Translations under genes and position numbers: made by a program
The notes under the pieces: generated by a model
Told to the model about the DNA's origin: nothing
Seen by the model: only the letters and a program-made list of their open reading frames with translations
Databases searched by the model: none
In this document: positions 29,608 to 60,904 of the stretch, piece by piece
Numbering within the stretch: the first letter of the stretch is position 1
Layout: each line of letters opens with the position of its first letter
Source: Siphonodentalium dalli
Taxonomy: Eukaryota; Mollusca; Scaphopoda; Gadilida; Siphonodentaliidae
Reading direction: 5' to 3'
Length of the DNA: 64,000 nt
NCBI GenBank assembly: GCA_032622095.1
Contig: CP136066.1
Span: 55,952,609-56,016,608 of the forward strand

Positions 29608-30796
29608 TCTCATATATATATTTGAAGACCTCTGTCTGTCTGTCTATTTGTCTGTCTGTTTGTCATTAATACAAATCTACGATTCTCGACCGACCGGGAC
29701 GAAATTTTGATATGTGTTTGTAGTTTGATCAGGCGGTGGTCGTTGTCGTATTGGCGAGCCCGCGCGACACCCGTGCAGCGCATGCGCAGGCGAGATCTCG
29801 GAAACGGGTGGAGCTATCGACTTGAAATTTGGTATGTGAATGTATCTTGCCCAAATACGAAATTTTATCGGGTCGCCGAGCCCGTGCGACGCCAGCTTCG
29901 CGCATGAGCAGACGAGATCTCGGAAACGGGTGGAGCTATCGACTTGAAATTTGGTATGTGAATGTATCTTGCCCCGGATACGAATTTTATCGGGTCGCCG
30001 AGCCCGTGCGACGTCAGCTTCGCGCATGTGCAGACGAGATCTCGGAAACGGGTGGAGCTATCGACTGTCTGTGTATATGTGTGTGTGTGTGTGTGTGTTC
30101 GCGATGAACGCGAAAACGGCCGACCCGATTTCGATGAAACTTGGTATGTGGGGGTATTTTTGGCCGGGGGTGGCATAGGCATATTAATTTGTCCGTGCGA
30201 CGTGACCTTGACCTTGAAATCGGGTCATTTCAAGGTCAAACGCCCGAATATCACGGGATTTCTTTGAAACTTGGTATGTGGGGGTATTTTCGGCCGATAA
30301 GTGGCATAGGCCTATTAACTTGCCCGTGCGACGTGACATTGGCCTTGAAATCGGGTAATTTCAACTTTTCAAGGTCAAACGCCCGAATATCACGGGATTT
30401 CGATGAAACTTGGTATGTGGGGATATTTTCGGCCGAGAAGTGGCATACGCCTATTAATTTGCCCGTGCGACGTGACCTTGACCTTGAAATCGGGTCAATT
30501 CAAGGTAAAATCGCGAATTTTGATAGGATTTCCACGAAATTTGATACATAGGGTTTACTTTTGTCCACTGAGTGTTTTCGACGGGTAAAATTGTGACCCC
30601 GACCTGACCTTGACCTTCAAAATGATCAATTCAAGGTCAAATCGGGTAAAACAGGATGTATTTCGACGGGTACTTTTGTCGGGTACTTTTGTCCGGGCAG
30701 TGTTTTGGACGTGTCAAATCGTTACCTCAACTGACCTTGACCTTCAAAATGGTAAATTCAAGGTCAAAGCCCGGACGAAGTCGGGTCACCTTCTAG
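29608..30796 (+). mobile_element. Single Helitron/Helentron-like element (1189 bp)
   Basis: It begins TCTCATATATATATTTGAAG after an A, followed by a (TCTG)n tract and 'tctacgattctcgaccg'. Three copies of a 122-bp repeat follow (29780-30060), then a (GT)n tract, then three to four units of a 131-139-bp repeat (30128-30790). It ends with the hairpin CCCGGAC-GAA-GTCGGG and, 11 nt on, CTAG (30793-30796) before a T. TC start, 3' hairpin, CTRR end and absence of target duplication are hallmarks of Helitrons. No Rep/helicase is encoded, so it would be non-autonomous. Confidence 0.65.
30128..30790 (+). repeat. 131-139-bp tandem units rich in AGGTCA half-sites
   Basis: Units start 'gatttcgatgaaacttggta' and contain 'gtgcgacgtgaccttgacct' and 'ttcaaggtcaaacgcccgaa'. 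Each pairs TGACCTTGACCTT with a downstream TCAAGGTCA (for example 30230-30238, 30369-30377, 30631-30639, 30758-30766). The last two units are degenerate. Confidence 0.85.
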
Positions 30797-31444
30797 TATA
30801 TATATATGCTGCTCGTAGTTACGGTTATGTATAATTTTGTTATATACTGCCCGTAAAGTTTTTGACTCCTGAACTGTCGTTATGAGTGGGTACGAAAATA
30901 GGGGTGGGGTAAATCTGAAGTTATATATAGGGGTATATAACCTATACATAGCTTTGTGCAATTTTTTGTTGACTTCGGATAATGGGAAATATGACTGCCC
31001 GTAACCCTGTTTCAGGGCAACTGCCCATAATTACGGTTAAGTCAGTATATATATACTGCTGAAAAGTTCAACAAATTTATGTATATATGTATAAATGTAC
31101 ATATATCCTTACATCCATACCTGTATTAAGGGGATGATAAATAATTTAATTTAATTGAACTGCATAGCAGCACAACTTGACAAGTGTAAAGTGGGATTTT
31201 CATGTGTTACTGTTATACATATGTTTAAATTAGTCTAGCTTCTCTTTACACCATCCTACTCATACTAGTTACTGATTAGGAGATCCATATAAATGGACAC
31301 AGTTTATGAGCAATTGCATTATACTATATAGTTTCGAAATGTTTGTCCATCCATGATGTTCGTTTATAAATCATGATCATGTGTTAAAGATACGAACGGC
31401 CTTCGCGATGGGTATTGTGGTTAAAATGGTTAAATCTGTTACAG
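30797..31444. other. AT-rich intergenic stretch
   Basis: Contains short (TA) runs and two 'ctgcccgtaa' motifs (about 30847, 30993). No gene is seen. Confidence 0.4.
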
Positions 31445-31671
31445 TACAGTGCGTAAAGAGTGTGTGGTAACAAAACACTCAACACCGGGGAGATCCCACT
31501 AATGAACTTTGGTTAAAACTGTACCATGTTGTTTATAACATACATTTAGAGCGCTCACTAATCCTCACCACTCAACTTTTCGCATTTGAATTGGTCACTG
31601 TGCATCAATCTCCCCCAAAACATCACTACGGTGTTGAGTGTTTGCTTATCGCACACTCTTTATGTGCTGTA
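31445..31671. mobile_element. TA-flanked MITE (227 bp)
   Basis: Terminal inverted repeats of about 45 bp run inward from TA at 31445-31446 and 31670-31671. Landmarks are CAG.(G/A)C.TAAAGAGTGTG and AAACACTCAACACCG. TA duplication is typical of Tc1/mariner-type elements. It is non-coding. Confidence 0.75.
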
Positions 31672-32235
31672 TATAAACGCTCGACTCACACAAGTGTGTG
31701 TGTGTGGATACTATCGTAGTCATACTATCATTATTCTATACGTTTAGTATATTGTTGAGGAATTTTTCCAAAAAAACATTTTGGTAACTTTTATTTCTAT
31801 ATACACTGTGAATTATAACCTTCAACCATCGGTGCCTTTAATTATCACCTGAAATAGAACAAAATTCTACCACATAATAATTGACATTAACTATAGTGAA
31901 ATAAATTCTGATTCAGAATTAACATATAGAGGAGTGGACTATAGCAAAGAATCATACTTGTTGTTAGACCCTCCATACATGCATATCACAATTGAACAGC
32001 TCACACACTGCTATATCAAAATTGATCAATTATAATGTTATTGATGTCAAATTGTTATATATTCATATTTATGTGAGGGCTATAATAACATATATTGTTT
32101 ACACTAAGCACGAAGTTGCAGAATCTGAGCCTGCATGGACATTACAGGATAATAAAACCATAAGATATCAATTCCCGATAGTTTTCTTTGTAAGATTTTC
32201 CAGAATATATTATAATCAGTTTATGTCTGTTTGGT
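31672..32235. other. AT-rich stretch, no recognised gene
   Basis: A 91-codon open stretch at 31992-32267 has no motif. Its end overlaps the retroelement tail remnant that follows. Confidence 0.4.
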
Positions 32236-32345
32236 TGATTGGGGTTTATCATCGTTTCAGCCGCTAGGCCATATCACGGCGTTGTCAGGTTTGCGGATGG
32301 TGGAAAGACCGCGCAGGGGGTTAATTTCACCGTGAAATCACTTCA
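32236..32345 (-). mobile_element. 3' tail remnant of a non-LTR element
   Basis: 'gattggggtttatcatcgtt' and 'gctaggccatatcacgg' match the 3' end of the retrotransposon at 17772 ('gattgaggtttaacgtcgtt', 'actaggccatatcacgac') in the same orientation. It looks like a 5'-truncated insertion. Confidence 0.6.
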
Positions 32346-32394
32346 CTGCATACCGTCGTTTCAATGATATGAGACCGCGCAACATCGCTGCCAA

Positions 32395-32675
32395 CATTTG
32401 ACCGTTAAACATACGGTCAGACCGTAGCATGTTCCACTGTATAAAACCGTTTAAGTAACGGGCAGACCGTAACCAATAACTGTCAGACCGTTGTATTTTT
32501 TTACGGTTCAGCACCGTTTAATTAATATCAAGACCGTAAATAATAAGGGTCAGACCAATGGTATTTTTCATGGGTCAACACCAATTTTTTGCTCTCAATT
32601 TGCTAATTTACCATAGAATTAGCCAGGTTCCCATGGTGACAATATGATTTCCCGGTAGGCATTACGATTCATATG
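32395..32675. repeat. CAGACCGT-type short repeats and a dispersed segment shared with 42862
   Basis: A roughly 40-bp motif built on 'ggtcagaccgta' occurs four to five times in 32395-32560. The following ~130 bp (32545-32675: 'gtcagaccaatggt', 'ggtgacaat.agatttcc', 'taggcattacgat') recur at 42862-42992 in direct orientation. Confidence 0.7.
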
Positions 32676-33196
32676 TTTTTGAATGGTCGAAACTAGTATT
32701 ATTCGTAACTGAAAAATACATCTTAGTTCTTATGTTACGATCATAGTTTTGATGAAATGTAAATCCTCAATGCATAAAGTGATAGACAATATTTATGAAA
32801 CTTTGCAGTTTGCAGAGGATCAAGCTTGTTATCTGCCTCGTAGAATTTAATCCGGAAAAGGCTGCACACGCGTAATGTGTTCGCCTTTCACTAACTACTG
32901 TATAAATATGGCCTTAAATAAAAAACGATACTAGTAATAGCTGATAAGCCACCCATCACTATTCAGTTATGAGTAATACTAATTTCGACCATTCTAAAAC
33001 ATGAATCGGCAGCCATTTTAAGCCATAAAAGAACAAAGCTACATGCTTCACAGTTAAAACTCAAATTTATGTACATGTAAAAGTAAAATATCTTAATGGC
33101 ATACTTTTTGGTAACATGTAAGGCGTGAAATTGTCCAGTCACTTGTAAACACAGTTTTTGTTTTAACAGGTGAATCCGTACATCATGACAATAAAG

Positions 33197-33697
33197 TACC
33201 AGTCAGAAGAAGTGGTATTTTTTAGGCGCACCTTTATTGCGATATTGAGCGTGCTTAATTTAGAAAAAGGCGTGATTATAGTACACTTCCAAAAATCTGT
33301 CGCGCTTATTATTGCAATATTGAACGCAAAATATTGCGATACTAAGCGCGCAAAATTTCATACAGACCCGATAGTGTTATATTTATATTAGATAAATACT
33401 GTGCATATAGTGTACATATATTGTACATATAGCATTTACAACTATAATTATATACATATCTAAAACATTGTCTCTATTTATACAATAAACAATATAGAAG
33501 AAGCAATAATTGATTTAAATGTCAAAATTTTGAGCGCAAGATGTTGCAATATTAAGCGCAAAAATATTGAGATATTAAGCGCAAAATATTGCAATAATAT
33601 CACAAGCGACATGCTTATAAGCGTTTCCAATTGCAATATTATTGCGATATTGGGCGCGAAAATAGCGCGCTTAATATACCACTTCTTTTGACTGGTA
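33197..33697. mobile_element. TA-flanked mariner-type MITE (501 bp)
   Basis: TA at 33197-33198 and 33696-33697 flanks inverted repeats CCAGTCARAAGAAGTGGTAT, continuing to AGCGC. The outer GTACCAGTCA matches the ends I know from Tc1/mariner elements. The interior consists of short blocks AAGCGCAAAATATTGCAATA repeated in both orientations around an AT-rich centre. No transposase frame is present. Confidence 0.8.
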
Positions 33698-35033
33698 CTG
33701 TATATAAATAACAGCTAGTTGGGATTGGAACCTTCAAGACAACAGCAGATCCCATAATAACTGCGCGCGATGACTTGGCGACAATGTTCTCCTGTAGTCG
33801 CACATTTTCAATGAAATTTAAAGCATGATGCATCAAACTGTATACTGGCATAACGACACTGACTTAGTATCAATATCAGTGAGTCAGCCAAAGATAGTTT
33901 GATAAGAACATCCAACCAATAGTGTACTCCCGGTAAATTGTCGTAATAACTTGACGATAACACGGCGAATGATGACAATGTCTCATATCCATACGTTTCA
34001 TTGAAAATTGATGAACACGGGATGAATTTGTCCGTGTAATTGTAAAGTTGGAATTGTAGATATGTGATCATCCGTCACTGCGCGGCGTCAGTTCATTGTT
34101 TACGGTGTTGTTGTTGACACTGAAGCTCTTGTGAATTACACTGGTGCATACAGTACATGTACATGTATATCATCTCTTGTAAATGTACATGCATGTGCTT
34201 TGAAACAATCAGATTCAGAAAACTGTCAACAGGATTTTCAACATTCTAATAGTAATAGCTGCTCGTTGAGTCGTTGTTGTTATTATTGTCACTATTGGTT
34301 GACATCGAAGCTTGTGTTAATTGTACCTGTATCCTCTAGTGTCAGTAAATGTGCCAGTGTTTTGATACTAAGTCACAACACTGCAATTTCAACATCAGCA
34401 ATTCGTCGAATGAAGTCAGACCCCGGATCACGCCATGAATCTCAACTCTCGAATTTAGTGGAAATTGTCAATGATTAAGCCGCTATTCGCTGAATTGCAA
34501 CTTGTCCGGTTATCAAAGGAACCGAAATCAGACCGTCCTAACAACTGCCCACAACCGAAAAGGTAACAGTTTCCTAAAAAACAACAGTTTGCTATCAACG
34601 ATAATGGCGAAGAAATGAGCTGATTGCTAAAGCTGGAACTTAACCCCGGAATGAAAATTACGTACCGTACTCATGATAATTCGTACGGCCCACATAACAC
34701 ATAATGAATGCCGCATTAATAATACATATTAAATATCAGCAGAGTAAGATTCAGTCATACTGTAAGGAGCTATTGTCGTATATAATATGGTCGCCGATAA
34801 ATATACTATTACATTTTGACGGCATGACTTTGAGTCACGAAAATATTTAATTTAGACAATTTTCATGGGCACATAAAATAACGGTATGGGACCGTCAAAC
34901 TGATGAAACGGTATGGGACCGTCGATTATGACGACCCGAAACCGTCGAACCGGCAGTAATTTCAAACAGTGTGCGTGGTGAAACCACCGACCACCGGAAA
35001 GCCCAGATACACGAACCTGTTTATCATACTTTA
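33698..35033. other. Intron or intergenic stretch before the fibrinogen-domain exon
   Basis: An 87-codon ATG frame on the minus strand (33808-34071) and a 115-codon plus frame starting GTG (34131-34478) show no known motif and no convincing splice sites. 'acggtatgggaccgtc' is duplicated at about 34882 and 34908. Confidence 0.4.
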
Positions 35034-35100
35034 GCGTGGATCACGAATCCGTGCTTGTTGGGGTTCGAACACTCTACCGACTGGACCACCGGGCATCCTC
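35034..35100 (-). mobile_element. tRNA-derived SINE fragment
   Basis: On the minus strand GGTGGTCCAGTCGGTAGAG (A-box-like) is followed at once by GTGTTCGAACCCC (B-box-like). The boxes are closer than in a real tRNA. It lies in the presumed intron 80-150 bp upstream of the fibrinogen-domain exon. Confidence 0.5.
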
Positions 35101-35186
35101 AGTACATGGCCATTACTATTTTATGAATAAGACATATACAATACACATATTAAATATTAAATTATGGTATCTTATTCCCTTCTCAG

Positions 35187-35833
35187 ACTGCAAAGACTTG
35201 ATGGACGCCGGCTTCGGAACTGATGACGTGTATACCATCAACCCGGGTGGATCGGGTGAAGTGAAGGTGGCTTGTGACATGACGACCGACGACGGAGGCT
35301 GGACAATATTTCAACAACGATCCAACGGCCTGGTCGATTTTTACCGGAATTGGGCATAATATGTTGAGGGATTCGGCAGCAAATCGATGTGTGGCAGTGA
35401 GTACTGGCTCGGCTTGGAAGCGATTCATCAACTGACCAACATGGCCCCCACTGAGCTGTATGTTAAACTAACTTCAGCTGATGGAGAGGAAAGATATGCG
35501 AAGTACTCTAACTTCGCCTTGGGTAATGACGCCAGCTTCTTTAAGATCACAACAACATGGGGTGAAGGAACAGCCGATGACTCACTACGGACACACGAAG
35601 GTCGAGCATTCAGCACGTATGACAATGACCACAGCAAAGCAGGTTGTTCCCTTGGTGTATGTTCCATCAAATTTCACGGGGCCTGGTGGTATAACTGCTG
35701 TCACCATTCCAACTTGAACGGCGCATACCTCAACAGCGCGAGTACTCCATTTGGAAAAGGAATGCAGTGGGTTGAAGAATTTGGTTACTATCACTCTGTG
35801 AAAAGCACAACCATGATGCTCAGACGCAAGTGA
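35187..35833 (+). pseudogene. Fibrinogen-related domain (FReD) terminal exon with one in-frame stop
   Basis: A clean acceptor (TATTCCCTTCTCAG, ending 35186) opens a 215-codon frame covering a whole fibrinogen C-terminal-like domain. It starts DCKDLMDAGF and continues with CDMTTDDGGWTIFQQRSNG, DFYRNWA, YWLGLEAIHQLT and FSTYDNDH (calcium-site region). It then has GAWWYNCCHHSNLNGAYLNS (ligand-pocket region) and ends TTMMLRRK before TGA. The usual cysteine pairs are present. The only defect is TAA at 35357-35359 just after DFYRNWA, a position where a Glu-like codon is usual; the frame is otherwise intact. Such domains occur in secreted innate-immune lectins (ficolin, tachylectin and FREP types). 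Either this copy died recently or the base is an error. Confidence 0.9.
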
Positions 35834-35958
35834 GAGACACGACACAAGATGTCACAACAGAGAAGCCAAGTGGCAATAATGATTGATGTGGGTTTGTGCT
35901 CTATCTGATAGACCATGCATGGGAACAAAGGTCAAAACTAAAATAATATAAAACATAC

Positions 35959-35974
35959 AATAAAAATGAATAAA
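35959..35974 (+). other. Two overlapping-range polyadenylation signals
   Basis: AATAAA occurs at 35959-35964 and 35969-35974, about 126-141 bp after the stop codon of the fibrinogen-domain exon. That is suitable spacing for the 3' end of its transcript and supports this being the last exon. Confidence 0.6.
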
Positions 35975-37838: not shown

Positions 37839-37896
37839 GAAATATTTAGATAATAAGTTCAACAAACGTTTGTTGAACTTATTATCTGAATATTTC
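37839..37896. repeat. 58-bp near-perfect palindrome without spacer
   Basis: Arms 37839-37867 and 37868-37896 match except for one base (AAGTTCAACAAAC meeting GTTTGTTGAACTT at the centre). Confidence 0.9.
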
Positions 37897-37932
37897 ATGT
37901 GAGGTAACTACCCATCAATGATGAGTCAGTGA

Positions 37933-38582: not shown

Positions 38583-40923
38583 TCTCATATATATTTTGAA
38601 GACCTCTGTCTGTCTGTCTGTATGTCTGTATGTAATTAATACAAATCTACGATTCTCGACCGATCGGGACGAAACTTGGTACGTGTATGTAGTTTGACCA
38701 GGCGGTCGTCGTTGTCGTATTGGCGAGCTCGTGCGGCGCCCGCTTCGCGCATGCGCAGACGAGATCTCGAAAACGGGTGGAGCTATCGACTTGAAATTTG
38801 CTATGTGAATGTATCATGTCCCGGATACGAATTTTATCGGGTCACCAAGCCCGTGCGACGCTAACTTCGCGCATGCGCAGACCAGATCTCGGAAACGGGT
38901 GGAGCTATCGACTTGACATTTGGTATGTGAATGTATCTTGCCCCGGATACGAATTTTGTCGGGTCGCCGAGCCCGTGCGACGCCAGCTTCGCGCATGCGC
39001 AGACCAGATCTAGGAAACGGGTGGAGCTATCGACTTGAAATTTGGTGTTTCAATAGCCCGGACAACGTCGGGCTCATCGGCTAGGCTCATATATATTTTG
39101 AAGACCTCTGTTTGTCTGTATGTATGTTTGTTTGTTTGTCTGTCATTAATACAAATCTACGATTCTCGACCGATCGGGACGAAACTTGGTACGTGAGTGT
39201 AGTTTGACCAGGCGGTCGTCGTTGTCGTATTGACGTGCCCGTGCGGCGCCCGCTTCGCGCATGCGCAGACGAGATATCGGAAACGGGTGGAGCTATCGAC
39301 TTGAAATTTGCTATGTGAATGTATCTTGCCCCGGATGCGAATTTTATCGGGTCGCCGAGCCCGTGCGACGCCAGCTTCGCACATGCGCAGACCAGATCTA
39401 GGAAACGGGTGGAGCTATCGACTTGAAATTTGGTTTTTCAATAGCCCGGACAACGTCGGGCTCATCGGCTAGTCTCATATATATTTTGAAGACCTCTGTT
39501 TGTTTGTTTGTTTGTCTGTCTGTCTGTCTGTCTGTCATTAATACAAATTTACGATTCTTGACCGATCGGGACGAAACTTGGTAATTGAGTGTAGTTTGAC
39601 CAGGCGGTCGTCGTTGTCGTATTGGCGAGCCCGTGTGGCACCCGCTTCGCGCATGCGCAGACGAGATCTCGGAAACGGGTGGAGCTATCGACTTGAAATT
39701 TGCTAGGTGAATGTATCTTGCCCCGGATGCGAATTTTATCGGGTCGCCGAGCCCGTGCGACACCAGCTTCGCGCATGCGCAGACGAGATCTCGGAAACGG
39801 GTGGAGCTATCGACTTGAAATTTGGTATGTGAATGTATCTTGCCCCGGATACGAATCTTATCGGGTCGCCGAGCCCGTGCGACACCAGTTTCGCGCATGC
39901 GCAGACCAGATCTCGGAAACGGGTGGAGCTATCGACTTGAAATTTGGTTTTTGAATAGCCCGGACAACGTCGGGCTCATCGGCTAGTCTCATATATATTT
40001 TGAAGACCTCTGTTTGTATGTTTGTAGGTATGTTTGTCTGTCATTGATACAAATCTACGATTCTCGACCGATCGGGACGAAACTTGGTACGTGTGTGTAG
40101 TTTGACCAGGCGGTGGACGTTGTCGTATTGGCGAGCCCGTGTGGCGCCCGCTTCGCGCATGCGCAGACGAGATCTCGGAAACGGATGGAGCTATCGACTT
40201 GAAATTTGCTATGTGAATGTATCTTGCCCCGGATACGAATTTTATCGGGTCGCCGAGCCCGTGCGACGCCAGCTTCGCGCATGCGCAGACCAGATCTCGG
40301 AAACGGGTGGAGCTATCGACTTGAAATTTGGTTTTTGAATAGCCCGGACAACGTCGGGCTCATCGGCTAGTCTCATATATATTTTGAAGACCTCTGTTTG
40401 TCTGTCTGTCTGTATGTCATTTATACAAATCTACGATTCTCGACCGATCGGGACGAAACTTGGTACGTGTGTGTAGTTTGACCAGGCGGTCGTCATCGTC
40501 TTATTGGAGAGCCGTGCGGCGCTCGTGCAGCGCATGCGCAGACGAGATCTCGGAAACGGGTGGAGCTATCGACTTGAAATTTGCTATGTGAATGTATCTT
40601 GCCCCGGATACGAATTCTATCGGGTCGCCGAGCCCGTGCGACGCCAGCTTCGCGCATGCGCAGACGAGATCTCGGAAACGGGTGGAGCTATCGACTTGAA
40701 ATTTGGTATGTGAATGTATCTTGCCCCGGATACGAATTTTATCGGGTCGCCGAGCCCGTGCGACGCCAACTTCGCGCATGCGCAGACCAGATCTCGGAAA
40801 CGGGTAGAGCTATCGAATTGAAATTTGGTTTTTGAATAGCCCGGACAACGTCGGGCTGGGTAGAGCTATCGACTTGACATTTGGTTTTTCAATAGCCCGG
40901 ACAACGTCGAGCTCATCGGCTAG
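38583..40923 (+). mobile_element. Five head-to-tail Helitron-like units (family 1)
   Basis: Units start at 38583, 39085, 39473, 39987 and 40371. Each begins TCTCATATATATTTTGAAGA (GCTC in the second), then (TCTG)n-type tracts, 'cgattctcgaccgatcggga', 'tttgaccaggcggtcgtcg', then two or three copies of a 122-bp repeat (GAGATCTCGGAAACGGGTGG ... CGCGCATGCGCAGAC). Each ends in the hairpin AGCCCGGAC-AAC-GTCGGGCT plus CATCGGCTAG. The last unit has its 3' end duplicated (40832-40923). Unit lengths of ~385, ~510 and ~553 reflect the 122-bp copy number. The many small open frames here are side effects of this repeat. Confidence 0.75.
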
Positions 40924-43680: not shown

Positions 43681-43844
43681 TCATACTGACAGGTGTAATA
43701 GGAATTTTTTAAGTGGACACCCCATGCAGGACCCATGCGCAACATCCCTAATTCCATGGTCATATATCGTTTTGGGAAAGATCATCTTACTCTTTCTAAA
43801 AATGTAAAGTGTGGTGTTCAGCATGGATCATTTATGAATTTTGC

Positions 43845-47565: not shown

Positions 47566-48411
47566 CTAGCAGGTTAGCCCGCCACTGGCGGCATTCGTAT
47601 CATGGCTTTGTTTCAGAAACATGACATGTTTTTAATTTAACCAAATTTCAAGTCGATAGCTCCACCCGTTTCCGAGATCTGGTCTGCGCATGCGCGAAGC
47701 TTGCGTCGCACGGGCTCGGCGACCCGACAAAATTCGTACCCGGGGCAAGATACATTCACATACCAAATTTCAAGTCGATAGCTACACCCGTTTCCGAGAT
47801 CTCGTCTGCGCATGCGCGAAGCTGGCGTCGCAAGGGCTCGGCGACCCGATACAATTTGTATCCGGGGCAAGATACATTCACATAGCAAATTTCAAGTCGA
47901 TAGCTCCACCCGTTTCCGAGATAACGTATTCTTTGTTTTTCAATGAGTTAATTCATGGTACCCGTCCTCCCCGTCCTAAACTCCAGAGCGGACAGTCAAT
48001 TAATACCGTCGTGAAATTCCTCTGCATAATATTTCGAGCTCTTAGATCAATTCTGCCTTTTTAGTCGAGATAATTGCATTTCGTCCGCATCCGTATTTCG
48101 GACGCATGTGGTCAGTCGTTTAGCCACGTCCATTGGAATCCGCATCCGTATTTCGGACGCATGGGGTCAGTCGTTTAGCCACGTCCATTGCAATAAAGAG
48201 CGTTGATTGTTAACACCTCCGTATAAGGTCAATATACAGATCGTTGATGTCTTAACCACCGCAGTGCTGTTTTTTGTTACTGAGATTGGAGAACGGGTGC
48301 TCTGATCGATCGAGCTTCTCCAAAACGCGACCACGGTCGTGTCGGCGTGATTTTACACTTACATACGAAATTTGAGCTCAATCTGTACACGCGTTTTGGA
48401 TTCTATGCAGT

Positions 48412-48461
<50 letters not shown>

Positions 48462-51400
48462 GGAGTTTTCAAAATATATAGTACTAGCAGGTTAGCCCGC
48501 CACTGGCGGCATTCGTCCCATGGCTTTGGTCGATCCATTAATTTTAGTTTTTCAATGTAACCCCGTACAGAACCGGGCTACTCAAAAACCAAATTTCAAG
48601 TCGATAGCTGTACCCGTTTCCGAGATCTGGTCTGCGCATGCGCGAATCTGGCGTCGCACGGGCTCGGCGACCCGATAAAATTCGTATCCGGGGCAAGATA
48701 CATTCACATACCAAATTTCAAGTCGATAGCTCCACCCGTTTCCGATATATCGTCTGCGCATGCGCTGCACGGGCGTCGCACGGGCTCGCCAATACGACAG
48801 CGACGACCACCTGGTCAAACTACACTCACGTACCAAGTTTCGTCCCGATCGGTCGAGGTGTTGGTATCTGATGCAAAAGACGAAATTGTGAGTGTTGGTC
48901 AATAGTCCCCGCCGCGAACCTCATCGTCGCAAAGAGCGGACAGTCAATTAACCCCGTTGTGAACCTCAATCACCAACGCGACGTAAACATGTGTTGCGTT
49001 CTAAAAATAGGAAAGCACTTTCTCTCTGCATAATTCTGCAGATGCTAATAACGTTGCTCCCCGTAGGTAGCAATATCGTTGTTGTTGATATATACGGGTT
49101 GTGGGCTATTTTCTTATTTAGCAAGTTTGAGCTCAATCGGTTAGAGTCTATAAAGGACACACTCATATATATGACACTTCCCGTAGGTAGCAAGTTTGAG
49201 CTCAATCGGCATTCCCTGGAATTTCCCGTAGATTGGCAGATTCCAGTACTTTATAACGGTATATCTGGGGAGAAATCTGATGCTATATTCGTGATTATCT
49301 GGGATGATTTCGGTATATACCGAAGTAAAAACAAAGCGCGCCATCCGTGCTCGCAGGGAATAAATTTCGAGCGATAACGTTTGCGTTCCCGTATATAACT
49401 CTGCAGATGCGAATAACGTTGAATGGGAAACAGACGCTCGTTATAGAGATGCGTCAAAAACAAACGCTCATTAAATAATCACTTGATTAACCCCCGCCGT
49501 TCCTTTGCGGTGATTTGAGATTGGAGAACGGGTGCTCTGAGCTTCTCTAAACCGCGACCACGGTCGTGTCGGTGGGATTTGACACTTACATAGGAAGTCT
49601 GAGCTCAATCTTTACACGCGTTTTGGATTCTATGAAGTACACACACACATATATACGAAGTCTCAAAATATATAGTATAGACTAGCAGGTTAGCCCGCCA
49701 CTGGCGGCATTCGTCCCATGGCTTTGGTCGATCCATTAATTTTAGTTTTTCAATGTAACCCCGTACAGAACCGGGCTACTCAAAAACCAAATTTCAAGTC
49801 GATAGCTGTACCCGTTTCCGAGATCTGGTCTGCGCATGCGCGAATCTGGCGTCGCACGGGCTCGGCGACCCGATAAAATTCGTATCCGGGGCAAGATACA
49901 TTCACATACCAAATTTCAAGTCGATAGCTCCACCCGTTTCCGATATATCGTCTGCGCATGCGCTGCACGGGCGTCGCACGGGCTCGCCAATACGACAGCG
50001 ACGACCACCTGGTCAAACTACACTCACGTACCAAGTTTCGTCCCGATCGGTCGAGGTGTTGGTATCTGATGCAAAAGACGAAATTGTGAGTGTTGGTCAA
50101 TAGTCCCCGCCGCGAACCTCATCGTCGCAAAGAGCGGACAGTCAATTAACCCCGTTGTGAACCTCAATCACCAACGCGACGTAAACATGTGTTGCGTTCT
50201 AAAAATAGGAAAGCACTTTCTCTCTGCATAATTCTGCAGATGCTAATAACGTTGCTCCCCGTAGGTAGCAATATCGTTGTTGTTGATATATACGGGTTGT
50301 GGGCTATTTTCTTATTTAGCAAGTTTGAGCTCAATCGGTTAGAGTCTATAAAGGACACACTCATATATATGACACTTCCCGTAGGTAGCAAGTTTGAGCT
50401 CAATCGGCATTCCCTGGAATTTCCCGTAGATTGGCAGATTCCAGTACTTTATAACGGTATATCTGGGGAGAAATCTGATGCTATATTCGTGATTATCTGG
50501 GATGATTTCGGTATATACCGAAGTAAAAACAAAGCGCGCCATCCGTGCTCGCAGGGAATAAATTTCGAGCGATAACGTTTGCGTTCCCGTATATAACTCT
50601 GCAGATGCGAATAACGTTGAATGGGAAACAGACGCTCGTTATAGAGATGCGTCAAAAACAAACGCTCATTAAATAATCACTTGATTAACCCCCGCCGTTC
50701 CTTTGCGGTGATTTGAGATTGGAGAACGGGTGCTCTGAGCTTCTCTAAACCGCGACCACGGTCGTGTCGGTGGGATTTGACACTTACATAGGAAGTCTGA
50801 GCTCAATCTTTACACGCGTTTTGGATTCTATGAAGTACACACACACATATATACGAAGTCTCAAAATATATAGTATAGACTAGCAGGTTAGCCCGCCACT
50901 GGCGGCATTCGTCCCATGGCTTTGGTCGATCCATTAATTTTAGTTTTTCAATGTAACCCCGTACAGGACCGGGCTACTCAAAAACCAAATTTCAAGTCGA
51001 TAGCTCCACCCGTTTCCGAGATCTGGTCTGCGCATGCGCGTATCTGGCGTCGCACGGGCTCGGCGACCCGATAAAATTCGTATCCGGGGCAAGATACATT
51101 CACATACCAAATTTCAAGTCGATAGCTCCACCCGTTTCCGATATATCGTCTGCGCATGCGCTGCACGGGCGTCGCACGGGCTCGCCAATACGACAGCGAC
51201 GACCACCTGGTCAAACTACACTCACGTACCAAGTTTCGTCCCGATCGGTCGAGGTGTTGGTATCTGATGCAAAAGACGAAATTGTGAGTGTTGGTCAATA
51301 GTCCCCGCCGCGAACCTCATCGTCGCAAAGAGCGGACAGTCAATTAACCCCGTTGTGAACCTCAATCACCAACGCGACGTAAACATGTGTTGCGTTCTAA

Positions 51401-54135
51401 AAATAGGAAAGCACTTTCTCTCTGCATAATTCTGCAGATGCTAATAACGTTGCTCCCCGTAGGTAGCAATATCGTTGTTGTTGATATATACGGGTTGTGG
51501 GCTATTTTCTTATTTAGCAAGTTTGAGCTCAATCGGTTAGAGTCTATAAAGGACACACTCATATATATGACACTTCCCGTAGGTAGCAAGTTTGAGCTCA
51601 ATCGGCATTCCCTGGAATTTCCCGTAGATTGGCAGATTCCAGTACTTTATAACGGTATATCTGGGGAGAAATCTGATGCTATATTCGTGATTATCTGGGA
51701 TGATTTCGGTATATACCGAAGTAAAAACAAAGCGCGCCATCCGTGCTCGCAGGGAATAAATTTCGAGCGATAACGTTTGCGTTCCCGTATATAACTCTGC
51801 AGATGCGAATAACGTTGAATGGGAAACAGACGCTCGTTATAGAGATGCGTCAAAAACAAACGCTCATTAAATAATCACTTGATTAAACCCCGCCGTTCCT
51901 TTGCGGTGATTTGAGATTGGAGAACGGGTGCTCTGAGCTTCTCTAAACCGCGACCACGGTCGTGTCGGTGGGATTTGACACTTACATAGGAAGTCTGAGC
52001 TCAATCTTTACACGCGTTTTGGATTCTATGAAGTACACACACACATATATACGAAGTCTCAAAATATATAGTATAGACTAGCAGGTTAGCCCGCCACTGG
52101 CGGCATTCGTCCCATGGCTTTGGTCGATCCATTAATTTTAGTTTTTCAATGTAACCCCGTACAGGACCGGGCTACTCAAAAACCAAATTTCAAGTCGATA
52201 GCTCCACCCGTTTCCGAGATCTGGTCTGCGCATGCGCGTATCTGGCGTCGCACGGGCTCGGCGACCCGATAAAATTCGTATCCGGGGCAAGATACATTCA
52301 CATACCAAATTTCAAGTCGTTTCAACGTTGAATGGGAAACAGACGCTCTTTATAGAGATGCGTCAAAAACAAACGCTCATTAAATAATTACTTGATTAAC
52401 CCACGCCGTGCGGTGATTTGAGATTGGAGAAAGGGTGCTCTGAGCTTCTATAGACCGCGACCACGGTCGTGTCGGTGGGATTTGACACTTACATAGGAAG
52501 TTTGAGCTCAATATGTACACGCGTTTTGGATTCTATGAAGTACATATATACACACACATATATATACGAAGTCTCAAAATATATAGTACTAGCAGGTTAG
52601 CCCGCTACTGGCGGCATTCGTCTCATGGCTTTGTTTCAGAAACATGACATTTTTTAAATTTAACCAAATTTCAAGTCGATAGCTCCACCCGTTTCCGAGA
52701 TCTGGTCTGCGCATGCGCGAAGCTTGCGTCGCACGGGCTCGACGACCCGATAAAATTTGTATCCGGGGCAAGATACATTCACATAGCAAATTTCAAGTCG
52801 ATAGCTCCACCCGTTTCCGAGATAACGCATTCTTTGTTTTTTAATGAGTTAATTCATGGTACCCGTCCTCCCTGTCCTAAACTTCAGAGCGGACAGTCAA
52901 TTAATCCCGTCGTGAAATCCATCTGCATAATATTTCGAGCTCTTAGATCAATTCTGCCTTTTTAGTCGTGATAATTGCATTTCGTCCGCATCCGTATTTC
53001 GGACGCATGGGGTCAGTCGTTTAGCCACGTCCATTGGAATCCGCATCGGACGCATGGGGTCAGTCGTTTAGCCACGTCCATTGCAATAAAGAGCGTTGAT
53101 TGTTAAAACCTCCGTATAAGGTCAATATAAAGATCGTTGATGTCTTAACCACCGCAGTGCCGTTTTTTGTGACAGAGATTGGAGAACGGGTGCTCTGAGC
53201 TTCTCCAAAACGCGACCACGGTCGTGTCGGTGGAATTTTACACTTTTATACGAAATTTGAGCTCAATCTGTACACGCGTTTTGGATTCCATGAAGTACCC
53301 ACATACATATATACACGCACACACATATATATATATATACGGAGTTATCAAATTATATAGTAGACTAGCAGGTTAGCCCGCCACTGGCGGCATTCGTCTC
53401 ATGTCTTTGTTTCAGAAACATGACATGTTTTTAATTTAACCAAATTTCAAGTCGATAGCTCCACCCGTTTCCGAGATCTCGTCTGCGCACGCGCTGCACT
53501 TTCAAGTCGATAGCTCCACCCGTTTCCGAGATCTCGTCTGCGCATGCGCGAAGCTGGCGTCGCACGGGCTAGGCGATCCGATAAAATTTATATCCGGGTC
53601 AAGATACATTCACATAGCAAATTTCAAGTCGATAGCTCCACCCGTTTCCGAGATAACGCATTCTTTGTTTCTCAATGAGTTAATTCATGGTACCCGTCCT
53701 CCCTGTCCTAAACTTCAGAGCGGACAGTCAATTAATCCCGTCGTGAAATCCCTCTGCATAATATTTCGAGCTCTTAGATCAATTCTGCCTTTTTAGTCGA
53801 GATAATTGCATTTCGTCCGCATCCGTATTTCGGACGCATGGGGTCAGTCGTTTGGCCACGTCCATTGGAATCCGCATCGGACGCATGGGGTCAGTCGTTT
53901 AGCCACGTTCATTGCAATAAAGAGCGTTGATTGTTAAAACCTCCGTATGAGGTCAATATAAATATTGTTGATGTCTTAACCACCAAGGTGCCGTTTTTTG
54001 TGACAGAGATTGGAGAACGGGTGCTCTGAGCTTCTCCAAAACGCGACCACGGTCTTGTCGGTGGGATTTTACACTTACATACGAAATTTGAGCTCAATCT
54101 GTACACGCGTTTTGGATTCCAAGAAGTACCCACAT

Positions 54136-54197
<62 letters not shown>

Positions 54198-56153
54198 GGA
54201 GTTATCAAATTATATAGTAGACTAGCAGGTTAGCTCGCCACTGGCGGCATTCGTCTCATGGCTTTGTTTCAGAAACATGACATTTTATAAATTTAACCAA
54301 ATTTCAGGTCGATAGCTCCACCCGTTTCCGAGATATGGTCTGCACATGCGCGAAGCTTGCGTCGCACGGACTCGGCGACCCGATAAAATTCGTATCCGGG
54401 GCAAGATACATTCACATAGCAAATTTCAAGTCGATAGCTCCACCCGTTTCCGAGATCTCGTCTGCGCATGCGCTGCACGGGCGTCGGTCGGGCTCGGCGA
54501 CCCGATAAAATTCGTACCCGGGGCAAGATACATTCACATACCAAATTTCAAGTCGATAGCACCACCCTTTTCCGAGATAACGCATTCTTTGTTTTTCAAT
54601 GAGTTAATGCATGGTACCCGTCCTCCCCGTCCTAAACTTCAGAGCGGACAGTCAATTAATCCCATCGTGAAATCCCTCCGCATAATATTTCGAGCTCTTA
54701 GATCAATTTTGCCTTTTTAGTCGAGATAATTGCATTTCGTCCGCATCGGTATTTCGGACGCATGTCCCTCCGCATAATATTTCGAGCTCTTAGATCAATT
54801 CTGCCTTTTTAGTCGAGATAATTGCATCGCGTCCGCATCCGTATTTCGGACGCATGGGGTCAGTCGTTTAGCCACGTCCATTGGAATCCGCATCCGTATT
54901 TCGGACGCATGGGGTCAGTCGTTTAGCCACGTCCATTGCAATAAAGAGCGTTGATTGTTAACACCTCCGTATAAGGTCAACATAAAGATCGTTAATGTCT
55001 TAACCACCGCAGTGCCGTTTTTTGTGATTGGAAAGGGAGAAACGGTGCTCTGAATTTCTCCAAAACGCGACCACGGCGGTGTCCGTGGGATTTTACACTT
55101 ATATACGAAATTTGAACACGATCCGTCAACGTGTTTTCGATTCTATGAAGTACACATATACACACACACATACATATATATATACGGAAGTCTCAAATTA
55201 TATAGTAGACTAGCAGGTTAGCCCGCCACTGGCGGCATTCGCCTGATGGCTTTGTTTCAGAAACATGACATTTTATAAATTTAACCAAATTTCAAGTCGA
55301 TAGCTCCACCCGTTTCCGAGATCTGGTCTGCGCATGCGCGAAGCTTGTGTCGCACGGGCTCGACGACCCGATAAAATTCGTATCCGGGGCAAGATACATT
55401 CACATAGCAAATTTCAAGTCGATAGCTCCACCGTTTCCGAGATCTCGTCTGCGCACGCGCTGCACGGGCGTCGCACGGGCTCGGCGACCCGATAAAATTC
55501 GTACCCGGGTCAAGATACATTCACTTACCAAATTTCAAGTCGATAGCTCCACCCGTTTCAGAGATCTCGTCTGCGCATGCGCGAAGCTGGCGTCCCACGG
55601 GCTCGGCGACCCGATAAAATTTGTATCCGGGGCAAGATACATTCACATAGCAAATTTCAAGTCGATAGCTCCACCCGTTTCCGAGATAACGCATTCTTTG
55701 TTTTTCAATGAGTTAATTCATGGTACCCGTCCTCCCCGTCCTAAACTTAAGAGCGGACGTCCCTCTGCATAATATTTCGAGCTCTTAGATCAATTCTGCC
55801 TTTTAGTCGAGATAATTGCATTTCGTCCGCATCCGTATTTCGGACGCATGGGGTCAGTCGTTTAGCCACGTCCATTGGAATCCGCATCGGACGCATGGGG
55901 TCAGTCGTTTAGCCACGTCCATTGCAATAAAGAGCGTTAATTGTTAAAACCTCCGTATAAGGTCAATATAAAGATCGTTAATGTCTTAACCACCGCAGTG
56001 CCGTTTTTTGTGACAGAGATTGGAGAAACGTGCTCTGAGCTTCTCCAAAACGCGACCACGGCCGTGTCGGTTTGATTTTACACTTATATACGAAGTTTGA
56101 GATCAATCTGAACACGCGTTTTGGATTCCATGAAGTACCCACACACACATATA
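47566..56153 (-). mobile_element. Array of nine head-to-tail Helitron-like units (family 2)
   Basis: Unit 3' ends (CTAG on the minus strand) lie at 47566, 48484, 49682, 50880, 52078, 52589, 53365, 54222 and 55210. Read on the minus strand, each unit starts TC or a variant followed by TATATATTTTGAGACTTCG, then a (TA)n(TG)n microsatellite, 'tccaaaacgcgtgtacag', a unit-specific middle and one to three 122-bp repeats. Each ends with the hairpin CCGCC-AGT-GGCGG and GCTAACCTGCTAG. Two middle types exist. One has duplicated 'catccgtatttcggacgca' blocks (units at 47566, 52589-55210). The other has a 'gtaggtagcaagtttgagct' duplication (1198-bp units). The 122-bp core is the one in family 1. Confidence 0.7.
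48484..52077 (-). repeat. Three nearly identical 1198-bp tandem units
   Basis: 48484-49681, 49682-50879 and 50880-52077 differ at only a handful of positions, for example GTACAGAACC versus GTACAGGACC and CGAATCTGG versus CGTATCTGG. A fourth copy (52078-52588) lost about 690 bp, with a join near 52319. Small open frames inside repeat at the same spacing and are not genes. Confidence 0.95.
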
Positions 56154-58852
56154 TCTATATCTATATTTGCGAATGTCTGTCTGTCTGTCTGTCTGTCTGT
56201 GTTCTATAGAAATCCACAGGGGACCATCTAGATGATGCCAAAGGGGTTTACTAGGAGTAGCTTTTTACGAGAAAGATAATGGTCGGGGTTAGAATTTCCT
56301 AAAGTGACGCCGTTGTTGTCAGGGGCAGAAAAGGGGGAGGGGCAGAAATTTTTTTTGTCGCCGATTGCCACCAAACTTCTATATAATCATCCCCATAATA
56401 TGAAGAATCCAACGGTGTGGTTTAAATATGTCAAAAGTGGCGTCGTTTGAGTCAGTGATGAACGGAAGGGGAGAGGGGCACCAAAATTGATAAAAACTAA
56501 TTTTAGCGCCGATTTCCACCAAATTGATATATATTCTTCTTCATGATACAAGGAATCTAATTGTGCGATTTAACAACGCCAAATTGTTGTTTTTGGATGA
56601 GAGATTGGGAGGGGTGGGCACTAAATTTGACAATAAGTCGCCGATTGCCACCACACTTATACAAAATCATCCCCATGGTATGAGGAGTCTAATGGTGTGG
56701 CTTTTATCTGTCAAATGTGGCCTGATTCGAGTCAGGGTTGCATTGAAATGGACAGGGGCACCAAAATTGATGCACAATTTTTTTAGCGCCAATTTCCACC
56801 AAATTGATACACGTTCTTATCCATGATACGAGGAATCTAATCGTGATTTAAAGAGCCATAGTGGTGCTGTTTGGGTGAGAGGTGGAGAGGGGAGGGATTG
56901 GCACCAAATTTGATAAAAAAAATTGTTTAGTCGCCGATTATCACCAAACTTATAAACAATCATCTCCATGATATCAGGAGTGTAATCGTATGGTTTAAGG
57001 ATGTCACAAGTGGGGCCATTCGAGTCAGTGGTGTATAGAGATGAGAGGGACACAAAAACTTATATCTATATGCTTAGTGCCGATTTCCACCAGATTGATA
57101 CATATTCTTCTCCGTGATACGATGAATCTTATCGTGTGGTTTAGATACACCAAATTGGTGCCCTATGGGTGAGAGATATGGGGACCTTACATTTGATACG
57201 AATTTGTATACTCGCCAATTTTCACCAATTTCTTATATATGCATCTCTAATCTCTAATGAGTCTTAGTGTGGCAGCTTGAGTCCGAAATAGGGACGGGAG
57301 GGTCACCAAAAACTGATACAAAATATTTTTAGAACCAATTACCATCAAATTTAGACACGTTCTTCTCAAATGATACAAGAAATAAAATCGTGCTGTCTGT
57401 CTGTCTATTTGTCTGTCTGTGTGCGTTCTATATATAACTTCACGCGGTACAATCGAGATGGCACCAAGGCGTTCTAAGAGGGGTAACTTTTTACAAGGAA
57501 GATAATGGTGCGGGTTAAAATGTTATAAAATGACGCTGTTGGTGGGAGGGGAAATAAAAAAAATATGGTGAAATAGTTTTGTCGCTGATTTCCACCAAAC
57601 GAATATATAATCACCTTCGCAATATGACGTTGTTCGAGTCAGCGTTGCATCAACAATTGATTTAATAAACCAAATTCCACCAAATTCATACACGTTTTTC
57701 TCTAATGATATACCATGAATTAAATCACATTTGGTGTCGTTTGTGTCACGGATGGCGAGCGAATATGCACTATCATTGATCAGATTGCTATTCGCCGATA
57801 TCCACATATAAGTTATAAACAATCACCAGGCCATCTCCATATCATTTTAAGTAGTTGGGCGTTCACATTTCACAATCCCGACATATGGTGACCCACATAA
57901 GTCACTTGAACAATTATATCTTCTTAACAGTCATATTTGTATGGGAATGGCAATCAAGGCATTCACACAATGAGCTAGCAAAAAGAGATAACTAGAAGAA
58001 GCATTAAACGTATATTTATCATTCTATTGAAGAGATACATATATTCGTGCAAACTGAGAGACCTCGAACCGTCAGAGGATTGCATATATATCATAACAAA
58101 ATTTAGTCTGTTCCATTCAATACAGTTTCCACAAACAGTTACAATTTGTCAAGAGATATGGAAGGCCTGTTCAAAAATAGTGGTCACAGTGTGCAGTCAA
58201 ATATAGTTTCTTCTGACATACAAGAAAATGCAGTTAGTAGCACAAGACTTTTCAGGATCCTACCAATACTGACATCTGACAAGGGTTTTAGAACAGACTC
58301 ATCGACTGACATAAACAACTCAAAATCTCGCCCTGTGCCTGGCACATGTAGCTGATATATGTGCGCAGCAACATTTCGTTTAAACTAAGAATATTTAGCC
58401 AATATATAGCACCATGAACAGAGGAGCACCTGGAAATTTCTTTGAAACATCTGTATCTTCATGGAGATATGATAGCCAGGTGTCCTCGAGATCTTAGTCC
58501 AACTCACTAGATTGATTGATACATCTCAATATGTAAAACCCAATTATCATCTTTTATCGAACTAATGTGTTTATGATGTTCATGTATCATATTATAACGT
58601 CTAATGTATACGCAGTTGTAAATAAATAAATACTTCATTATTGGTGGAACGGATTACTCGCGATAAACAGAATGACAATTGACAATGTGAGCCACTACTT
58701 ATATTCCATGACTGTAATAATCATGTTTTGTGATGCTATTTGAATATACAATTTATGAGAAAACGTATAACACTTTAAGCAAGAGCATTCTCTATTCCCA
58801 ATAAATATCCACAGCATACATTAACCTGGGCAACGCCGGGTAACCCTGCTGG
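56154..58852 (+). mobile_element. Helitron-like element (family 4) nested in a family 2 unit
   Basis: It starts TCTATATCTATATTTGCGAA after an A, followed by (TCTG)n. A ~145-bp tandem repeat occupies 56340-57400. A second copy of the 5' module (57394-57560, again with TCTG steps) and unique DNA follow. It ends with the hairpin CCTGGGC-AAC-GCCGGG, 12 nt before CTGG, then T. Left and right flanks rejoin the microsatellite and 'tctcaaaatatatagtatag' start of a family 2 unit. No Rep/helicase frame is found. Confidence 0.6.
56340..57400 (+). repeat. ~145-bp tandem repeat with alternating subtypes
   Basis: The box 'cgccgatt.ccaccaaa' recurs near 56360, 56508, 56640, 56787, 56932, 57078, 57212 and 57332, followed alternately by 'aatcatccccat' and 'ttcttct.catgatac'. 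The effective unit is thus a dimer of about 290 bp. Diverged copies continue near 57582, 57668 and 57792. Confidence 0.85.
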
Positions 58853-59705
58853 TACATATATATATACGAGTTCTCAAAATATATAGTATAGATTGGCAGA
58901 TTCCAGTAGCTTAATAACGGTATATCTGGGGAGAAATCTGATGCTATATTCGTGATTATCTGGGATGATTTCGGTATATACTAAGGTATATACTGTAAGA
59001 ACAAAGGGCGCCACCCGTGCTCGCTGGGTTGGTCAGAAACATGACAATTTTATTTTTTTCAGAAACATGACATTTTTTTAATTATTTCGTTTTTTTTATT
59101 TTTTAATATTAATTTTTATTCTCGTGAAATCTCTCTGCACCCGTTTCCGAGATCTCGTCTGTGCATGCGCTGCACGGGCGTCGCACGGGCTCGCCAATAC
59201 GACAACGACGACCACCTGGTCAAACTACACTCACGTACCAAGTTTCGTCCCGATCGGTCGAGGTGTTGGTATCTGATGCAAAAGACGAAATTGTGAGTGT
59301 TGGTTTGTAACCGGGATTTCTGAGAAGCATTATCCCTGGACTACCCCCCCTAAGCCATGACCTAAGTGTCATACATACTATAACAATGATGTTGTAAGAG
59401 TACTATGGCATCCAATATATCTCCCCGCATAGGAAAGCACTCAATGTTCCCTTATAACTCTGCAGATGCTAATAACGTTGAATGGGAAACAGACGCTCTT
59501 TATAGCGATGCGCCAAAAACAAACGCTCATTAAATAATCACTTGATGAACCCACGCCGTGCCTTTGCGGTGATTTGGGAGTGGATAAAGGGTGCTCTGAC
59601 CTTCTCCAAAACGCGACCACGGCCGTGTCAGTGGGATTTTACACTTACGTACGAAATTTGAGCTCAATCTGTACACGCGTTTTGGATTCCATGAAGTACC
59701 CACAT

Positions 59706-59744
<39 letters not shown>

Positions 59745-59770
59745 CGTAGTTCTCAAAATATATATATAGA
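58853..59770 (-). mobile_element. Broken family 2 unit(s)
   Basis: 58890-59030 matches the middle of the 1198-bp unit ('gattggcagattccagtag', 'tatctggggagaaatctgat'). 59140-59300 matches its 'cggtcgaggtgttggtatct' part. 59440-59770 matches its microsatellite end. Pieces are reordered or deleted, and T-rich filler lies at 59040-59120. Confidence 0.65.
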
Positions 59771-60904
59771 CTAGCTGATGAGCCCGACGTTGTCCGGGCT
59801 ATTCAAAAACCAAATTTCAAGTCGATAGCTCCACCCGTTTCCGAGATCTGGTCTGCGCATGCGCTGCACGGGCGTCGCACGGGCTCGCCAATACGACAAC
59901 GACGACCGCCTGGTCAAACTACACACAGGTACCAAGTTTCGTCCCGATCGGTCGAGAATCGTAGATTTGTATAAATGACATACAGACAGACAAACAAACA
60001 AACAGACAGAGGTCTTCAAAATATATATGAGACTAGCCGATGAGCCCGACGTTGTCCGGGCTATTCAAAAACCAAATTTCAAGTCGATAGCTGTACCCGT
60101 TTCCGAGATCTGGTCTGCGCATGCGCGAAGCTTGCGTCGCACGGGCTCGGCGACCCGATAAAATTCGTATCCGGGGCAAGATACATTCACATAGCAAATT
60201 TCAAGTCGATAGCTCCACCTGTTTCCGAGATCTGGTCTGCGCATGCGCGAAGCTGGCGTCGCACGGGCTCGGCGACCCGATAAAATTCGTATCCGGGGCA
60301 AGATACATTCACATACCAAATTTCAAGTCGATAGCTCCACCTGTTTCCGAGATCTCGTCTGCGCATGCACGAAGCTGGCGTCGCACGGGCTCGGCGACCC
60401 GATAATATTCGCATTCGGGGCAAGATACATTCACATAGTAAATTTCAAGTCGATAGCTCCACCCGTTTTCGAGATCTCGTCTGCGCATGCGCGAAGCTGG
60501 CGTCGCACGGACTCGGCGATCCGATAAAATTCGTATCCGGGGCAAGATACATTCACATACCAAATTTCAAGTCGATAGCTCCACCCGTTTCCGAGATCTC
60601 GTCTGCGCATGCGCGAATATGGCGTCCCACGGGCTCGGCGACCCGATTAAATTCGTAATCTGGGCAAGATACATTCACATACCAAATTTCAAGTCGATAG
60701 CTCCACCCGTTTCCGAGATCTCTTCTGCGCATGCGTTGCACGGGCGTCGCACGGGCTCGCCAATACGACAACGACCACCGCCTGGTCAAACTACACACAC
60801 GTACCAAGTTTCGTCCCGATCGGTCGAGAATCGTAGATTTGTATTAATGACAAACATACATACAGACAGACAAACAGACAGAGGTCTTCAAAATATATAT
60901 GAGA
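59771..60904 (-). mobile_element. Two family 1 Helitron-like units, reverse orientation
   Basis: Units 59771-60032 and 60033-60904 read on the minus strand from TCTCATATATATTTTGAAGA to the AGCCCGGAC hairpin and CTAG. The first unit has no full 122-bp repeat. The second has five to six copies, the longest internal array in the window. Confidence 0.75.

Follow-up and report, generated by a model that had tools for sequence, protein, structure and literature searches.

Canonical (Helitron1-type) Helitrons are described as elements that start with TC, end with CTRR, carry a palindrome about 11 bp from the end and insert between A and T (PMC4067079). The same source gives subterminal inverted repeats, insertion at TT and a 3′ stem-loop as hallmarks of the Helentron-associated elements (HINEs), and subterminal inverted repeats are also presented as HINE-defining in PMC7492417. 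Here we describe a stretch of 64,000 nucleotides from the scaphopod Siphonodentalium dalli (contig CP136066.1, positions 55,952,609 to 56,016,608 of the forward strand), which is called the window below and is numbered from its first letter. It holds four groups of elements, F1 to F4, each with a simple-repeat tract and a satellite core. Taken as a whole, they are very probably best explained as non-autonomous canonical Helitrons: their ends show the 5′ TC, the 3′ CTRR and the hairpin near the 3′ end by which such elements are recognised.

Several described systems come close to these elements, and comparison is made with the parts of the cited papers that deal with them. Helitrons of C. gigas have two conserved end boxes, a microsatellite and then a short satellite array (PMC8268682). 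In the Cg_HINE elements of the oyster the left flank runs into a tract, which is of the GTCY type in several of them, and is followed by a core of fixed orientation and a right flank with a palindrome; one group combines like flanks with unlike repeats, some elements have two consecutive arrays, and Pearl, DTC84 and MgE of bivalves are mentioned alongside them (PMC7492417). Perfect CTAG-to-TC junctions have been published in bat and in maize, where the two Helitrons are unlike; for the maize pair the authors discuss multimer and consecutive-insertion models and favour two independent insertions, in an order that they leave open, as they do the choice between a G and T site and the A and T at the resident 5′ end for the second one (PMC2267711). 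Helraiser has TC and CTAG ends, a 3′ hairpin, an AT target and a circle junction CTAG-TC (PMC4778049). Tandem Helitrons are mentioned for bat and silkworm (PMC4067079), and three tandem Helitron copies in Metarhizium acridum are explained by 5′-end insertion or rolling circle (PMC5148889).

In their parts and their layout the scaphopod elements correspond to kinds known from earlier work on oysters, bats and maize. An earlier note on this DNA had suggested that their design may be undescribed; this is not supported in view of Cg_HINE, the C. gigas Helitrons and the published maize junction from CTAG to TC. What sets them apart from the oyster elements is that the ends are canonical and that one core occurs between two unlike flank pairs.

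The inventory of 19 copies was drawn up from TRF, BLAST of the 122-bp unit and of the arms, a self-comparison of the window and a motif scan. F1 has seven copies, F2 has ten (subfamilies F2A and F2B; F2_10 is without a 3′ end), and F3 and F4 have one each. The four families of the earlier note are recast as F1 and F2, which have unlike flank pairs, together with F3, a chimera with an F1 head, and F4. The copies are the following.

29608..30796, + strand: F3, with an F1-type 5′ half made of TCTCATATATATATTTGAAG, (TCTG)n, an arm and 2.6 copies of the 122-bp repeat; A precedes its TC and T follows its CTAG.
Within 29608..30796, + strand: second part of F3, in which an inner (TG)n tract is followed by ~139-bp repeats and a separate 3′ end with CTAG.
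38583-39084, 39085-39472, 39473-39986, 39987-40370 and 40371-40923, + strand: F1 array of five copies (F1a-F1e), with ends, junctions and 122-bp units.
47566..48483, − strand: F2_1 (F2A), the 3′ edge of the array, with a TAC start; T of non-F2 DNA comes next.
48484..52077, − strand: F2B copies F2_4, F2_3 and F2_2, three 1198-bp units with CTAG-to-TC junctions.
52078..52588, − strand: F2_5, a 511-bp F2B-type copy with an apparent internal deletion and a TAC start in place of TC.
52589..55209, − strand: F2A copies F2_8 (54222-55209), F2_7 (53365-54221) and F2_6 (52589-53364), head to tail.
55210..58892, − strand: F2_9 (F2A), split by F4, which sits on the opposite strand at 56154-58852.
56154..58852, + strand: F4, from TC to CTGG, with a (TGTC)n tract, a ~280-bp dimeric core and a second tract and arm at ~57392.
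58893..59770, − strand: F2_10, an F2B-like 5′ part without a 3′ end, broken by the 5′ end of F2_9 where CTGCCAA meets TC.
59771..60032, − strand: F1g, with one partial 122-bp unit; its CTAG lies directly against the TC of an F2 element.
60033..60904, − strand: F1f, with six 122-bp units, the last one partial; its 5′ flank is A and its 3′ end adjoins F1g.

TC forms the 5′ end of 16 of the 19 copies, the exceptions being F1b (GC) and F2_1 and F2_5 (both TA). All 18 copies that have a 3′ end terminate in CTAG (17) or CTGG (F4), and the next base is T in 17 of them (F1a has G after its CTAG), in agreement with the 3′ ends given in the earlier note. The sequence TATATATTTTGA occurs exactly 14 times, at seven F1 and seven F2 5′ ends, while 0.05 occurrences are expected (100 shuffles). 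With one mismatch it is present in F2_6, F2_7 and F2_8 and with two mismatches in F3; at the 5′ end of F4 it was not found by the motif scan, even allowing two mismatches. A start of TC plus TATATATTTTGA, which had been attributed to all four families, therefore applies to F1 and F2, and not to F3 and F4. Independent support for the 5′ boundary comes from the self-comparison of the window: F3 and F1f are similar from the A in front of their TC onwards (position 29607 for F3, 60905 for F1f).

The hairpins were evaluated by folding the last 34 nt of 374 CTRR sites followed by T, on both strands, with DNA energies; F1a is absent from this ranking due to the G after its CTAG. Fourteen family 3′ ends rank 3-26 among the 374 sites, including those at 55210 and 52589, where a fold other than the terminal hairpin has the lowest energy. 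The 10-13 nt reported before for the distance of the hairpin hold when counted up to the element end. Energy folding was used since a strict-stem de novo search for hairpins missed the family ends, probably on account of short or bulged stems. We also compared the last 30 nt of one exemplar per family, with CTRR unscored, to 357 background CTRR sites followed by T. The scores for F1-F3 (12.5), F3-F4 (8.5) and F1-F4 (7.0) exceed all background scores, the best of which are 3.0 for F1, 2.5 for F3 and 6.5 for F4 (n = 357). It is this similarity to F1 and to each other, not the hairpin energy, that supports the 3′ ends of F3 and F4. One stem pair, judged by eye, is A-T in F1 and G-C in F4. In F1e, at 40802-40923, a 56-bp tandem duplication repeats the 3′ hairpin region, and CATCGGCTAG stands after the second copy only.

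Five 5′ ends are free, i.e., not against a CTAG; four are preceded by A and one (F1a) by T. The sole comparison of a filled and an empty site is provided by F4 inside F2_9. The joined flanks align with uninterrupted F2 copies, but the site lies in a TA-rich tract, so that the absence of a TA duplication is not demonstrated by this comparison. Where F2_9 cuts into F2_10, an F2B copy without the interruption was examined and has CTGCCAATCTACGG, and since TCTA is common to both sides of the break the exact breakpoint is ambiguous.

The earlier note had seen a link to Helentron-associated elements. The scaphopod elements do have the layout of the oyster Cg_HINE, in which a left part and a tract precede the central repeats and a right part with a hairpin comes last; also shared with Cg_HINE are the tract before the core, like flanks with unlike cores, and two consecutive cores; a HINE-type 3′ stem-loop and central tandem repeats are present. 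HINE inverted repeats are expected to have ~12-15 bp. The first 40 nt were compared to the last 90 nt, with 500 shuffles per copy, and subterminal inverted repeats were not found in six copies (p = 0.98 for F1c, 0.67 for F1f, 0.94 for F2_3, 0.19 for F2_9, 0.09 for F3 and 0.24 for F4). Unlike Cg_HINE, for which such repeats and a preference for TT are described, the elements have TC and CTRR ends, and their free 5′ flanks are A in four of five cases, T being limited to F1a within this small number. HINE membership was rejected after the inverted-repeat test, and we consider it highly improbable that these elements are Helentron-associated. Of the earlier description, the Helitron-like ends and the modular layout of left end, tract, core and right end are supported, the Helentron link is not. 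The C. gigas Helitrons share with the elements in the window the order of end boxes, microsatellite and satellite core; they differ in the length of their monomers, which have 122 and ~139 bp here, the comparison being one of described layouts.

Fourteen of the 19 5′ ends lie directly against a CTAG, with zero bases in between. The heptamer CTAGTCT is present 12 times in the window (3.2 expected), 11 times at element junctions. This confirms the head-to-tail arraying that had been noticed before. Nine abutting copies, from F2_9 to F2_1, form the longest run, and at one junction the CTAG of F1g meets the TC of F2_10, a member of another family. As in the maize pair, the CTAG of one element here leads straight into the TC of an unlike one; the maize pair, however, carries genes or gene fragments, whereas the elements in the window carry satellites and form runs of up to nine copies. 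Helraiser is similar by description in its ends, its hairpin and the CTAG-TC join, but it is a reconstructed, experimentally active element. M. acridum likewise has tandem copies, for which the same two explanations have been put forward; its elements are of the fungal Helitron2 type with asymmetric terminal inverted repeats, unlike those described here.

Such arrays could be rolling-circle multimers: a circle would be copied past the 3′ end and the concatemer inserted, making neighbours sisters. The 1198-bp units F2_2, F2_3 and F2_4, which share 99.6-100% identity and are joined by CTAG-to-TC junctions, fit this explanation, and circles with the same junction are known (PMC4778049). It also agrees with the finding that F1a-F1d are nearer one another (92.9-95.3%) than F1f (89.6-92.5%) in arm and first unit. 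On the other hand, the members of F1 differ among themselves by ~4-10%, as do those of F2A (F2_6, F2_7 and F2_8 show 90.5-95.9% pairwise identity), and a single array includes both F2A and F2B copies. An unrooted tree, built from six copies without F1g and F3, places F1e with the distant F1f (support 92), and the arm alone places F1a and F1d nearer F1f (96.8 and 97.9%) than each other (94.7%). The junction of F1g and F2_10 joins two families and rules out multimers of a single element as the only route. Multimer formation as the source of the arrays is thus possible, but we regard it as doubtful. It is compatible with tandem duplication by unequal exchange among older insertions, in which case transposition would have given the first copies only. 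In favour of such exchange, the near-identical 1198-bp repeats stop at 52319, inside the 122-bp core of F2_5 and not at an element end, the atypical TAC start is common to F2_1 and F2_5, and F2_10 has lost its 3′ half. Duplication alone does not create the 14 exact junctions of CTAG to an element start, that between F1 and F2 included, and the identity of 99-100% among F2B units falls to 68% between F2_1 and F2_2 at the other edge. Due to this drop that edge appears to be an element boundary, though BLAST runs a weaker similarity to 48281. Unequal exchange as the origin of the arrays is in our view likewise doubtful. At each edge of the F2B block (48483 and 52588) a copy, F2_1 or F2_5, starts with TACTATATATTTTGA right after CTAG and has no TC. 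Starts with TACTATATATTTTGA at both edges suggest that this block may have been exchanged in by recombination.

Together, these data lead to the conclusion that the arrays arise by more than one route and that no single mechanism covers all of them. Insertion at the A and T where host DNA meets a resident element accounts for F1g-F2_10, and local duplication or multimers account for the F2B block.

The 122-bp repeat is present in F1, F2 and F3 (TRF; BLAST), and the view that this module moves between families is supported. In Cg_HINE each repeat cluster is tied to one flank pair, whereas the 122-bp core is found here between two (F1 and F2). F3 shows tandem periods of 122 bp and then ~139 bp by TRF, which confirms its two successive arrays with a slightly longer second period than the ~135 bp reported before, and it is 93.3% identical to F1f over 461 bp. 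The core of F4 had been described as ~145-bp dimers. A ~280-bp dimer of two ~140-145-bp halves does exist, but it is limited to ~56340-57390 and does not make up the whole element. The tract and arm of F4 recur internally at ~57392, and its right-hand 1.1 kb has no match elsewhere within the window. F3 and F4 look like fused dimers without inner ends, and in this they are akin to the 3′-truncated tandem Helitrons of which PMC7492417 and PMC8268682 speak.

By pattern we found 45 units of 122 bp, 17 of which are the last of their element; the short piece in F2_10 was not picked up, and five F2A first units without the diagnostic site were set aside. An ACC variant marks 15 of the 17 last units (all except those of F3 and F2_7) versus 2 of the 23 other classifiable units, with a Fisher p of 4e-7 for counts that include near-identical copies. 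This last-unit marker is common to F1, F2A and F2B, and the 122-bp core has therefore probably moved as an ordered block, 3′ edge included. When one F2A copy was aligned with one F2B copy (segment lengths read by eye), ~175 nt of the 5′ end, ~44 nt of the 3′ end and the 122-bp core corresponded, and the remainder differed. F2B also holds a 31-nt piece of the F1 arm (BLAST) and, on visual inspection, the first part of the 3′ end of F1. The first 330 nt of F2_10 are 86.6% identical to F2_2, with an interior that fits F2B up to the break, and the last 120 nt of F2_5 share 99.2-100% identity with F2B.

A box around GAAAYTTGGTAYGTG is common to the 122-bp units, the 139-bp units and the F1 arm; the pair scores are reached by 0, 1 and 0 of 300 shuffles (21 pairs tested, p uncorrected). 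The F4 core gave no significant match to the 122-bp unit, the 139-bp unit or the F1 arm (p = 0.14, 1.00 and 0.12), and the idea that all cores stem from one ancient monomer was dropped for this reason. The − strand of 24355-24840 carries a pair of diverged repeats whose GATTTCAATCAAATTTGGTATGTGGG is close to the box of the 122- and 139-bp units, and no Helitron ends were seen by eye near them.

The 122-bp arrays might also be an ordinary satellite that was hit by unrelated elements, which would then have no carrier role. C. gigas has some satellites that are both free-standing and inside elements (PMC8268682). In the window, however, every BLAST match of the 122-bp unit (E up to 1e-3) lies inside a mapped element and in the orientation of that element, including one 59-bp piece in F2_10, the copy without a 3′ end, and the last unit is position-specific. 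An ordinary satellite is therefore hardly tenable as an explanation.

The sequence itself shows where the elements end, how exactly they join and how they are built from modules, and it shows the ordered core of F1, F2A and F2B and the inner second tracts of F3 and F4. For the events behind this we propose a nick at TC by the Rep/helicase of an autonomous relative that lies elsewhere in the genome. One strand would then be peeled off, closed into a circle at CTAG and inserted between A and T. Read-through past the 3′ end of the element, or a template switch in the 122-bp repeats or the simple tracts, could lead to the cores of F2B, F3 and F4. A new element that lands right in front of a resident TC, after the A of the host, would generate a perfect CTAG-to-TC junction, even across families; landing between G and T after a resident CTAG would be a less canonical alternative. 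Rolling-circle multimers or unequal exchange could then multiply local units (F2_2 to F2_4). It is conceivable, though in our view unlikely, that the 5′ border of a resident Helitron is the preferred landing site for the next element across families. The transposase would nick the TC of any element with the shared 5′ motif, and a circle opened between CTAG and TC would be joined there. If true, arrays of element plus satellite would be a built-in product of the reaction and not the result of later recombination, and the shared 5′ ends would explain how cores meet and are exchanged across families.

Some observations weigh against non-autonomous canonical Helitrons that exchange cores and grow into arrays from the 5′ side. 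Hairpin energies are unexceptional at F3 (rank 68 of 374), F4 (76) and F1e (111), and for these three ends the hairpin claimed by the earlier note did not stand out. The 3′ end of F2 is weakly similar to those of F1, F3 and F4: among the 357 background sites, 0 and 1 equal its pair scores with F1, 0 and 3 those with F4, and 4 and 0 those with F3. The base before F1a is T, not A. F2A and F2B are only 61-73% alike in the first 330 nt and 64-66% in the last 120 nt, and the near-identical copies in the counts mean that the p value given above overstates the marker evidence. Growth at the 5′ side predicts older copies at the 3′ side, but an age gradient of F2A copies along the array was not seen (divergence from the consensus of 2.9% for F2_1, 1.6% for F2_6, 3.2% for F2_7, 6.0% for F2_8 and 3.1% for F2_9). 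The missing 3′ part of F2_10 was not found beyond F2_1, which implies that the array was also rearranged. From position 3900 on there are 88 frames of at least 85 aa; 28 of them were scanned against Pfam, many of the other 60 lying within arrays, and no Rep/helicase was recognised in the 28. The longest stop-to-stop frame outside the 66-bp satellite at 1-3739 has 259 aa and is without a Pfam match.

Open frames traverse the 122-bp arrays. A coding role of the repeats was rejected, since 122 cannot be divided by 3 and three frames of F2 units had no Pfam match. Pfam matches below the cut-off (DUF3394, zf-RVT, Zn-C2H2_12, Toxin_cobra-type, Bestrophin and Botulinum_HA-17) were taken as chance. 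Rfam, at gathering scores, and ARAGORN found nothing. Searched as exact stretches of 31 and 33 bases, the 122-bp unit had 0 matches in virus and prokaryote contig collections and F1f had no match among plasmids, results that have little bearing on animals.

The locus constitutes a clear natural record of how satellite repeats are carried, exchanged and multiplied by rolling-circle elements. A single window contains arrays of similar copies, a cross-family junction, a nested insertion, the exchange of a core with an ordered edge and apparent fused dimers. It adds a case of satellite carriers with canonical Helitron ends and leaves the known picture of such elements unchanged. Given a genome-wide comparison, the junctions described here could separate serial insertion from multimer formation.

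The window contains the following other features.

1-3739: the 66-bp satellite in 56.5 copies (99%), which has at least four open frames, with a 22-aa repeat such as HSGKHSDLEREVRSKKGSGHDD on the + strand.
7263-7682: a reverse transcriptase fragment (Pfam), which together with the fibrinogen-like domain listed below gives the window the look of animal DNA.
12757-13813, 16602-17640 and 27621-29030: an array family with ~160/320-bp repeats, the first copy being opposite in orientation.
13923: a hairpin-like stretch with CTGG, 110 bp past the array at 12757-13813; no other background site resembles the 3′ end of F4 as much (6.5, best of 357).
22682-23512: a 29-bp tandem repeat, 28.7 copies with 100% matches.
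34982-35833: a fibrinogen C-terminal domain, spread over two neighbouring stop-to-stop frames (Pfam E 5.6e-15 and 9.5e-34).

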